Source: a virus. Taken from it: a DNA stretch of 58,566 bases. Location: positions 1-58,566 of IMG/VR virus record IMGVR_UViG_3300044648_000159; one strand, written 5' to 3'. Position 1 is the first letter of the stretch, and every line of letters starts with the position of its first letter. The translations under genes and the position numbers were made by a program. A model generated the notes under the pieces. It did no database searches and was not told where the DNA came from. It saw only the letters and a program-made list of their open reading frames with translations. Shown here one piece after another: positions 9,131 through 12,187 of the stretch.

Positions 9131-9658
9131 ATGAATGAGTTGGCTCTTTTCGCAGGCGCTGGTGGAGGCATTCTCGGAGGCGTCCTCCTTGGATGGCGAA
9201 CTGTCTGCGCAGTTGAACGTGATGCCTACTGCGCATCCGTTCTGGCGCAACGACAAAATGATGGACTCCTCCCGCCTTTCCCGATTTGGTCTGACGTTAC
9301 GTCTTTTGACGGCCGACCGTGGCGAGGCATTGTTGACGTCGTATCGGGCGGCTTTCCTTGCCAAGACATCAGCGTCGCAGGATCAGGAGACGGACTCAGC
9401 GGCGCCCGCAGCGGACTCTGGCGAGAGATGGCGCGGATCATTCGCGAGGTTCGACCGCACTACGTCTTCGTGGAGAACTCCCCAATGCTCGTTTCTCGAG
9501 GACTCGGACGAGTTCTTGGAGACTTGGCCGAGATGGGGTGCGATGCGGAATGGGGAGTGTTATCTGCGGCCGACGTTGGGGCCTACCACTTGCGAGAGAG
9601 GATCTGGATTCTTGCCGACGCCCGTCGCGGTGGACACGGGCAGCTATTTCAACCGTAG
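9131..9658 (+). CDS. DNA cytosine-5 methyltransferase, catalytic half
   Basis: A 175-aa protein with m5C methyltransferase motifs: I FAGAGGG (7-13, AdoMet binding), IV GFPCQDIS with catalytic Cys77, VI ENS (115-117) and VIII RERIW (155-159). It stops soon after motif VIII, without the usual target-recognition domain and motifs IX-X. Those may come from the overlapping frame 9135-10055, whose C terminus resembles motif IX. Probably protects phage DNA from host restriction or alters regulation. The start lies only four bases from that of the overlapping frame. Confidence 0.88.
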   Translation: MNELALFAGAGGGILGGVLLGWRTVCAVERDAYCASVLAQRQNDGLLPPFPIWSDVTSFDGRPWRGIVDVVSGGFPCQDISVAGSGDGLSGARSGLWREMARIIREVRPHYVFVENSPMLVSRGLGRVLGDLAEMGCDAEWGVLSAADVGAYHLRERIWILADARRGGHGQLFQP

Positions 9659-10055
9659 CGCAAGCGCAGGAGCTGCGAAGCGCCCGACACTTGGAGCAAT
9701 GGCGAAGTACGACCTATGGCCAACACCAACAGCAACGCTCGGAACGAACGGCGGACGAGTGACCCCAAGCAAAGCCAGGGAGGGCGGGACACTTATCGAA
9801 GCACTGAGTGCACGAATGTTTCCCACACCGACAGCGACAAACACCAAGGCGCATCACATGAGAGGCGCGGACAAGGGGAAGGATCGCGAGCCTCGCTCGT
9901 ACGGTGCCCATGGCCAGTTGAACCCAACGTGGGTCGAGTGGCTGATGGGGTGGCCTTTAGGGTGGACCGGATTACAGCCCTTGGAAATGGACAAGTTTCG
10001 CGAGTGGCAGCGACAGCATTCAGGCTGCTGCGAGCCAGACTCATCGCATAGTTGA
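9135..10055 (+). CDS. Overprinted partner of the methyltransferase
   Basis: A 306-aa frame shifted +1 relative to the methyltransferase. It overlaps all but four bases of it and then extends about 400 bases beyond its stop. From memory, related proteins are common in phages (SWLFSQALVEAF start; SRLSRFGLTLR, SGERWRGSFARFD, repeated PTPTAT). The C terminus has LNPTWVEWLMGWPLGW (about 262-277), resembling motif IX of C5-methyltransferases. This recalls M.EcoHK31I, where a second subunit carrying motif IX is read from an alternative frame of the first gene. Whether the overlapped part is translated needs testing. Confidence 0.7.
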   Translation: MSWLFSQALVEAFSEASSLDGELSAQLNVMPTAHPFWRNDKMMDSSRLSRFGLTLRLLTADRGEALLTSYRAAFLAKTSASQDQETDSAAPAADSGERWRGSFARFDRTTSSWRTPQCSFLEDSDEFLETWPRWGAMRNGECYLRPTLGPTTCERGSGFLPTPVAVDTGSYFNRSASAGAAKRPTLGAMAKYDLWPTPTATLGTNGGRVTPSKAREGGTLIEALSARMFPTPTATNTKAHHMRGADKGKDREPRSYGAHGQLNPTWVEWLMGWPLGWTGLQPLEMDKFREWQRQHSGCCEPDSSHS

Positions 10056-10073: not shown

Positions 10074-10892
10074 ATGGCAGAACTAAGCAAAATCGAATGG
10101 ACAGATCACACGTTCAATCCATGGATTGGATGCACCAAGGTCAGTGTCGGGCCGAAAGGCGCCTGCGTGAATTGCTACGCCGAGGTCGCGACTCCTACGC
10201 GTGCGATGCATATCGGCTGGGGTCCTGGGAAGCCTCGCCACCGCACGAGTGCGTCAACGTGGGACATGCCACTGCGATACGAACGCAACGCCGAGGCATT
10301 CCTTGCCGCGCACGGCCGAAGGCAGCGCGTGTTCTGCGCTTCGCTCGCCGACGTGTTCGACAACGAGGTCGATCCGCAGTGGCGCACGGATCTGTTCCGA
10401 TTGATCCAGCAGACGCCGCACCTGGATTGGTTGCTGCTCACGAAACGCATCGGCAACGCCCGGCAAATGCTCAACGACACGATGGCCGCTCTGCATCACA
10501 GCAGCTGGGACGAATGGCCGTGGGCTCACGTTTGGCTCGGATCGACGATAGTCACCCAGGACGAGTTCGATCGCGACGTTGAGAAGCTGATAGAGACGCC
10601 GGCACGCGTGCGATTCCTTTCGTGTGAGCCATTGATGGAATCAATCGAGTTCCCTCTGCCGTGCCGTGGCTCGCTATTCTGGAGCAGCGTGCACTGGATC
10701 ATCGTAGGCGGCGAGAGCGGCAGGAACCCGCGACCGATGGCGCAGCGGTGGGCTGAACGCATCCAAGAGCAGTGTGCCAAGGCCGGCTGCGCGTTCTTCA
10801 TGAAGCAGGGATCGGACGCGAACTGGCCGGCCTACAAAGATTTCAGCCGCTTCGCTCCGCATCTGCAGGTGCGCGAGTGGCCTTCTCACTAA
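10074..10892 (+). CDS. Phage Gp37/Gp68 family protein (DUF5131)
   Basis: A 272-aa protein opening with IEWTDHTFNPWIGCTKVS and a nearby CVNCYAE, then VFCASLADVFDNEVD, LLLTKR and IVGGESGRNPRPM. These are the hallmarks of the Gp37/DUF5131 family, common in temperate phages, with radical-SAM-like Cys spacing but unknown biochemical role. It commonly sits near DNA modification genes, as here, directly after the methyltransferase pair. Confidence 0.88.
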   Translation: MAELSKIEWTDHTFNPWIGCTKVSVGPKGACVNCYAEVATPTRAMHIGWGPGKPRHRTSASTWDMPLRYERNAEAFLAAHGRRQRVFCASLADVFDNEVDPQWRTDLFRLIQQTPHLDWLLLTKRIGNARQMLNDTMAALHHSSWDEWPWAHVWLGSTIVTQDEFDRDVEKLIETPARVRFLSCEPLMESIEFPLPCRGSLFWSSVHWIIVGGESGRNPRPMAQRWAERIQEQCAKAGCAFFMKQGSDANWPAYKDFSRFAPHLQVREWPSH

Positions 10893-11596: not shown

Positions 11597-11854
11597 ATGA
11601 AGCGCAAACGCAAGCAGAAACGAAAGCAGTTCGAGCACCAGAAGGGCCTGTGCTGCTGGTGTGTCGAGCCGATGATCTGGGGTAATGGATGTCACAACCA
11701 GAAGCTGTCCCCGACATGGGAGCACCTCGTTCCCAGGTCAATGGGCGGCCCGAACGCTTTGACCAACCTCGTACTGGCGCATCGAGCCTGTAACAGTGAC
11801 CGCGGGTTGCGCACTTGGCCGTCCGAGTTCCGGCCCTACTCAACAGCGACCTAG
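11597..11854 (+). CDS. Small HNH endonuclease-like protein
   Basis: An 85-aa protein with a very basic N terminus, CCWC, WEHLVPRS, then NLVLAHRACNSDRG. This is the HNH beta-beta-alpha-metal signature (H in EHLVP, N in the NLVLA helix, then a Cys-containing knuckle). It is a second HNH gene, distinct from the one near the terminase at 45432. Nuclease activity inferred. Confidence 0.75.
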   Translation: MKRKRKQKRKQFEHQKGLCCWCVEPMIWGNGCHNQKLSPTWEHLVPRSMGGPNALTNLVLAHRACNSDRGLRTWPSEFRPYSTAT

Positions 11855-11866
11855 GCTTGTGAGCAC

Positions 11867-12187
11867 ATGAACACCTACGACTTACGCGAGGCCGCAAGCA
11901 TCGCCAAGGTGCATTTCCAAACCTTGCGGCAAATGGCGGCCAGCAAAAAGCCGGATAGACCGCCAGGCGCTAAGATCGGCCGCGCCTGGGTATTCCCCTG
12001 TCATTTGTTTGACCGATGGATTGAAGAACAATGCCTCTCTACAAAAGACCCGGGTCCGATATCTGGTGGTGCCGCGGGTCAGTCGCTCGCAAACCGTATC
12101 GCAAAACGACGGGAACAGTTGATCGAGAAGAAGCGGAAGAGTTTGAAGAGCGCGAGCGTCAACGACTCTGGAGACTGCACAAGCTAG
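11867..12187 (+). CDS. xis: Excisionase-like winged-helix protein
   Basis: A 106-aa protein whose first 57 residues form an HTH_17/AlpA-type domain (YDLREAASIAKVHFQTLRQM ... KIGRAWVFPCHLFDRWIEEQ), as in excisionases. It overlaps the integrase start by 157 bases in another frame, so the C-terminal half may be a by-product of the overlap. Its place directly before the integrase supports a role as recombination directionality factor. Confidence 0.75.
   Translation: MNTYDLREAASIAKVHFQTLRQMAASKKPDRPPGAKIGRAWVFPCHLFDRWIEEQCLSTKDPGPISGGAAGQSLANRIAKRREQLIEKKRKSLKSASVNDSGDCTS

Follow-up and report, generated by a model that had tools for sequence, protein, structure and literature searches.

Probable two-subunit C5-cytosine methyltransferase encoded in two frames along a single viral gene

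The locus is situated on the plus strand of the window, by which the whole analysed stretch of 58,566 nucleotides (IMG/VR record IMGVR_UViG_3300044648_000159) is meant. Two ATG codons at 9131 and 9135, 4 bases apart, open two frames on the same strand, further designated as alpha and beta. The first ORF (9131–9658) encodes 175 aa up to a TAG stop and the second (9135–10055) encodes 306 aa; they overlap by 524 bases (9135–9658), and 397 more bases are found in the second ORF only. The start distance, the shared bases and the roughly 400 further bases had been described in the same way in an earlier note on this DNA and are confirmed in the sequence. Its statement that the first frame ends before the recognition domain holds as far as the TAG at 9656–9658, but it missed that the alpha frame reopens behind this stop for 130 codons, up to 10051, and includes motif X there. 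Two frames are indeed read, as claimed, but the doubly read stretch comprises the whole gene of about 920 bases rather than 524. The following features were recognised:

9131..9658, plus strand: N part of alpha with C5-cytosine methyltransferase motifs I–VIII, 175 aa, ending at TAG (PF00145, E 3.9e-29; phrog_363, E 2.7e-55)
9135..10055, plus strand: beta frame, 306 aa (phrog_1008)
9143..9166, plus strand: motif I (ALFAGAGG) of alpha (sequence)
9347..9367, plus strand: motif IV (GGFPCQD) of alpha with the catalytic Cys 77 (sequence; C77 invariant in 56/56)
9473..9484, plus strand: motif VI (ENSP) of alpha (sequence)
9587..9616, plus strand: motif VIII (HLRERIWILA) of alpha (sequence)
9612..9908, plus strand: variable region of beta with PTPxA modules, a likely target-recognition region as judged from the lowest conservation and a varying copy number
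9656..9658, plus strand: TAG stop at alpha codon 176, in the linker just past motif VIII (alpha open in 78/80 beta-selected viral relatives)
9659..10051, plus strand: C part of alpha in the same frame past the TAG, linker and motif X, first start codon ATG 9716 (sequence; phrog_363)
9918..9965, plus strand: motif IX-like segment LNPTWVEWLMGWPLGW of beta (P264 and E268 to W273 invariant in 57/57)
9971..10030, plus strand: motif X (ITALGNGQVSRVAATAFRLL) of alpha, past the TAG (sequence; relatives)

The gene directly downstream (10074–10892) encodes a DUF5131 protein (PF07505, E 1.6e-68) with weak similarity to the radical SAM mobile pair protein A; it was considered as a conserved partner and rejected, being present near 2 of 256 unique loci only. 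Further downstream are genes for an HNH endonuclease (11597–11854), a small excisionase-like HTH protein (11867–12187) and a phage integrase (12031–13071). As predicted from their sequences, the integrase, HTH and HNH genes are consistent with a temperate phage.

The N part of alpha reads MNELALFAGAGGG...GGFPCQD...ENSP...HLRERIWILA, followed by the TAG. It carries motifs I, IV (PC), VI (EN) and VIII, as had been noticed before, and belongs to the C5-cytosine DNA methyltransferases (PF00145) by these motifs and by a profile match covering alpha residues 4–162 (profile positions 4–160 of 324). Past the TAG the frame continues with WPVEPNVGRVADGVAFRVDRITALGNGQVSRVAATAFRLL, the motif X region, which was recognised by eye and through phrog_363, the latter matching on both sides of the stop (positions 54–221 and 229–312 of 327); when taken from ATG 9716, alpha matched phrog_32758 in addition to phrog_363 229–312. 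The IX–X part was not recognised by Pfam, with neither the C part of alpha nor beta having a family match. The AlphaFold model of alpha from the intact relative L002 included a Rossmann part at residues 1–178 (weak at 79–91) and a helix at 298–314, with about 190 to 294 modelled without confidence, and its best Foldseek match was M.HaeIII (E 2.3e-11), M.HhaI being among the first. Thus modelled, the L002 alpha is predicted to fold as a C5 methyltransferase, and the unconfident middle agrees with its reading as a linker.

Beta matched phrog_1008 with an E-value of 7.3e-32, so that two separate families listed in PHROGs, phrog_363 and phrog_1008, are the alpha and the beta readings of this one gene. 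Given this match and its many relatives, beta is no mere chance frame. The segment LNPTWVEWLMGWPLGW that had been taken for a motif IX-like C terminus is present, but at residues 262–277, i.e. about 30 residues short of the end; the name 'motif IX' may be given to it by its position and by analogy with the literature. No Pfam family was found in the beta of the window, and among 57 relatives there were just two weak unrelated matches, each in a single sequence. PDB sequence searches with beta and with the IX–X part of L129 gave no match at E up to 10, and the AlphaFold model of beta was unconfident (pLDDT 54.7, pTM 0.23). Conservation of beta is lowest at residues 201–225. Three PTPxA modules are present in the window (residues 162, 197 and 231, within 9608–9840, i.e. 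beta 158–235), and TP-type motifs past residue 140 vary from 1 to 6 per sequence among the 57 relatives. Each PTPxA module reads in alpha as a (V/M)A(D/N)-like piece of the linker. The number of modules may bear on the DNA target; with a variable modular region in beta and a linker-like stretch in alpha, target recognition would be placed mainly in beta. By the distribution of the motifs, alpha carries I–VIII and X, and beta the variable region and motif IX.

A search of IMG/VR with beta yielded 80 viral loci at 40–64% identity. In 78 of them, alpha ran uninterrupted from the start region up to and including motif X, the two exceptions being L035, with a TGA just before X, and L008, with an indel swapping the frames near the start. 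A genome scan produced 80 more loci, mostly from Pseudomonas, Acinetobacter, Burkholderia and their relatives, and in outlying cases from Verrucomicrobia, Planctomycetota, Patescibacteria and archaeal bins; beta relatives were also found in 6 plasmid records. Acinetobacter phage ABMM1 (OQ471969) is an example of a relative with an intact alpha/beta pair. A joint HMM survey of the collected loci counted 370 with both readings, 257 of which were unique (228 passed a strict filter); beta was in the +1 frame in all 257 and motif X in the alpha frame in 250. Where loci had been selected by alpha, beta was open to motif IX in 79 of 80, L238 having one stop. A draw of 398 genomes, taken from the family to which one Pseudomonas locus belongs, contained 11 with alpha, and an internal stop was absent from all of these. 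Nonsense alleles of beta were seen in L238, L257 and L279. Nonsense codons in the catalytic part of alpha, or indels, were observed in L109, L133, L105, L008 and L135, which, from their sequences, are apparently decaying or mis-assembled copies. A full-length methyltransferase frame in close relatives, which the earlier note would have taken as a sign of a sequencing error here, was thus found in the form of full-length alpha; the same relatives, however, keep the second frame open, and therefore the overprint is real and longer than had been supposed.

Of 81 loci, 78 begin beta with ATG, and 68 have ATG, GTG or TTG as the codon 4 bases upstream of the beta start. In 8 loci (L018, L033, L034, L050, L052, L056, L076 and L080) TTA occupies the position of the alpha start; all of them keep the beta ATG and have an in-frame ATG, GTG or TTG 9–63 bases upstream, so that alpha would carry a short N-terminal extension there. 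Such an upstream in-frame codon was present in 12 of the 12 loci checked for alternative alpha starts. Purine-rich sequences resembling ribosome-binding sites were seen by eye ahead of many start pairs.

Conservation in both frames was checked across homologs by synonymous codon shuffling (59 sequences, 40 shuffles each, scored with held-out profiles) and by the analysis of silent differences. Shuffles preserving alpha lowered the score of the held-out beta HMM from the observed 389 bits to 154, a loss of 60%, and introduced on average 5.5 beta stops; shuffles preserving beta lowered the alpha HMM score from 432 to 136 bits, with a mean of 9.6 alpha stops. L008 with its 5' indel (27 and 32 bits) was kept in these means and omitted from the 25-residue-window, fourfold-identity and silent-difference analyses; alignment A1 was made without L008 and L035, and alignment A2 without L008, L035 and the window. 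In blocks of 25 residues, every beta block from residue 1 to 300 was conserved beyond what alpha explains, and every alpha block beyond what beta explains. The results of the shuffles and blocks are inflated by shared ancestry, and therefore the test was conditioned on differences that did occur, which lessens this effect, albeit all-against-all pairs are not independent. Within alpha 1–165, 50,518 alpha-silent fourfold differences led to 2 beta stops against 1,098 expected from codon usage, with a mean BLOSUM score of the beta change of -1.18 vs -1.52 expected. Within alpha 166–250, 11,120 beta-silent differences led to 0 alpha stops vs 388 expected (mean BLOSUM -0.67 vs -0.93). The absence of stops combined with the loose BLOSUM scores indicates a linker that is held open with its sequence loosely kept, at the place where the variable region of beta is located. 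The opposite result was obtained for alpha 251–300, where beta stops appeared at the expected frequency (226 observed vs 116 by usage and 231 uniform) because the natural beta stops of many members lie there. Shared fourfold codons in alpha 1–165 had an identity of 0.48 in the lowest-identity-bin pairs vs 0.31 expected at saturation, so these sites are constrained yet far from frozen. Both frames are under protein-level selection in the relatives.

Long open shadow frames are frequent in genes rich in G+C, and beta might accordingly have been no more than a frame kept open by the codon composition of alpha, one of the three options originally offered for this locus. This option was rejected and has next to no probability: at the level of sequence, the 5.5 beta stops per alpha-preserving shuffle and the 2 beta stops against 1,098 expected contradict it, and purifying selection acts on the overlapped part of beta, whose own start codon is conserved. 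A programmed frameshift joining the N part of alpha to the C part of beta, another of those options, would add what the N part lacks, namely the variable region and motif IX, correctly ordered behind VIII. It is not needed, and is highly improbable, because it leaves unexplained the beta ATG in 78 of 81 loci, the selection on the first 150 residues of beta, and the open alpha frame with a conserved motif X past the supposed shift. The remaining option, a split enzyme with M.EcoHK31I as precedent, is supported by the distribution of the motifs and by the selection on both frames.

Since the relatives have a full-length alpha, the TAG in the window represents either a break, a peculiarity of this copy or an error. 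The window alone shows no working pair, its alpha being interrupted; the copy as sequenced is probably inactive. Its alpha keeps all 55 positions that are invariant in 56 relatives, 10 of them past the TAG; among 44 intact controls none of these was missing in 26 and one or more in 18, a few controls missing many, probably from guessed start coordinates. Internal alpha stops were present in 8 of the 250 unique loci with motif X in the alpha frame (codons 41, 109, 145, 166, 171, 171, 176 and 269), as counted from stop flags in 22 loci, the other 14 lying at the last aligned residues; this proportion probably understates broken alpha, as loci L170–L249 were picked by alpha and favour an intact one. 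Four of the eight stops fall in codons 166–176, namely in the window (176, TAG), L082 (171, TAG), L115 (166, TAA) and L376 (171, TAA), compared to 5.9% of the stops placed there by beta-preserving shuffles (P 7e-4, with the zone chosen afterwards and n=8). In the tree, the window adjoins L002, which is intact, and L082, which is stopped at a different codon, and the four loci are located on separate branches, hence the stop events were independent. An alpha-frame start codon follows 15–72 bases past the stop in each of the four.

A sequencing or assembly error in the metagenomic contig, with alpha intact in the phage itself, is suggested by the retention of all 55 invariants and by the source record being an IMG/VR contig. 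Against it stand L082, L115 and L376, which carry stops of independent origin in that zone, though these loci are also metagenome-derived, and a search in viral_contigs for a second copy of the stretch around the TAG, which gave 0 matches; on balance, such an error is possible, if rather doubtful. The retained invariants, the clustering of the stops on separate branches and the start codons behind them may also be explained by a working three-chain enzyme, made of alpha-N (I–VIII), beta (variable region and IX) and a motif X chain of 111 residues re-initiated at ATG 9716, and alpha does end naturally near the codon 176 point in type-B relatives and in actinophages. However, the 166–176 zone was chosen after the data had been seen, the stops number eight in all, start codons are common there anyway, and a good ribosome-binding site ahead of ATG 9716 was not seen by eye. 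Moreover, in alpha the branches leading to L082 and L376 exceed those of the sister loci in length (0.20 vs 0.08 and 0.28 vs 0.068, respectively), the branch of the window not being longer, and L082 and L376 each lack one invariant alpha residue. A three-chain enzyme at this locus is therefore considered unlikely, and less likely again is a natural three-chain enzyme in which the repeated breaks after VIII would be re-splitting steps toward a motif X in the other frame.

Readthrough or suppression of the TAG, by amber suppression or stop reassignment, would restore the full-length alpha and accords with the in-frame continuation carrying conserved residues and with the TAG in L082. Nevertheless it is improbable: the stops of L115 and L376 are TAA, no sign of TAG reassignment was seen (TAG ends 2 of the 33 long ORFs checked), no tRNA gene was found in the window, and no recognisable extension of the long genes resulted when TAG was read as sense. 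Most likely, the TAG marks either an allele that has recently lost its function or an error in base calling, and loss or error is ranked above the three-chain enzyme.

In M.EcoHK31I the second chain is read in an alternative frame of the first, with a shorter small subunit whose start lies within alpha. This alpha/beta C5 methyltransferase has the target YGGCCR. By motif layout and description the present locus is similar to it in having I–VIII and X on one chain and IX on the other, a layout found in the relatives and, by sequence, in the window, with the TAG between VIII and X. It differs in the position of beta, which here begins 4 bases behind the alpha start and spans alpha from end to end. 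The large subunit of M.EcoHK31I carries I–VIII, X and a predicted recognition domain, and the small one IX only, according to PMC3404938, in contrast to the variable region being located in beta here; M.EcoHK31I is also mentioned in PMC3439449 and PMC6456624. In M.AquI the cut lies inside the variable region, and both IX and X are on the second chain; as another two-chain C5 methyltransferase it is described in PMC3404938. The M.AquI type was rejected for the present family, since the window and 250 of 257 unique loci carry motif X in the alpha frame.

Two further groups can be compared. In the Paenibacillus larvae phages Leyra (gp61/gp62) and Shelly (55 and 'g55 internal gene'), too, one methyltransferase frame encloses another, which is in the same +1 phase and has a beta-like motif IX. 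Both frames are annotated, so public annotation already shows nested double coding of such a kind; unlike at the present locus, their beta is nested, starting 184 bases in and ending before alpha. The actinophages Catdawg (gp6/gp5, L163) and Lilbooboo (gp32/gp33, L165), together with L125, L129 and L159, have I–VIII in alpha and a +1 beta with the variable region and IX, but their alpha terminates behind VIII and X belongs to the beta frame, which corresponds to the M.AquI type of split. Hence, the frame of motif X differs between lineages. In the accessible parts of the open-licence PMC literature, no paper on an overprinted phage C5 methyltransferase family was found, and two-chain enzymes were named in methods papers; the retrieved parts of three other sources concern a retroelement in overlapping frames (PMC8008677), frameshift prediction (PMC10885494) and P. 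larvae phages, for which two cytosine methyltransferases are listed without discussion of an overlap (PMC6070908).

Overall, the locus very probably represents, on the evidence of sequence comparison, a C5-cytosine methyltransferase of the same two-subunit kind as M.EcoHK31I, overprinted from start to start over about 920 bases. Alpha, starting at 9131, would provide the SAM-binding and catalytic fold (I–VIII), a loose linker and then motif X, while beta, starting at 9135 in the +1 frame, would contribute its own N-terminal part, the variable region probably reading the DNA target, and motif IX. Both chains would be translated from one mRNA by means of the start codons 4 bases apart and might assemble as in M.EcoHK31I, with IX of beta near X of alpha. 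The pair would then methylate a short DNA target, the beta variable region helping to read it, and such methylation may protect the phage DNA from host restriction.

The layout is rare: two frames extend over the entire stretch and would give the two halves of one enzyme. To our knowledge, few same-strand overprints in phages would be as long or as widespread as this gene of about 300 codons, read nearly fully in two constrained frames. It occurs at about 240 unique loci (250 carry X in the alpha frame, with an interruption in 8) in viral contigs and in bacterial and archaeal genomes. Only one frame is annotated in the six named relatives inspected, alpha in H1, H2, H5 and H6 and beta in H4 and H11, which leaves half of a two-part enzyme out or filed apart. 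If the three-chain reading were true, phages would re-split the overprinted enzyme by breaking alpha just past VIII. The family offers a test bed for the coevolution of two proteins in one sequence, with the alpha linker being loose where beta is busy, for translation from starts 4 bases apart, and for a motif changing frames between lineages.
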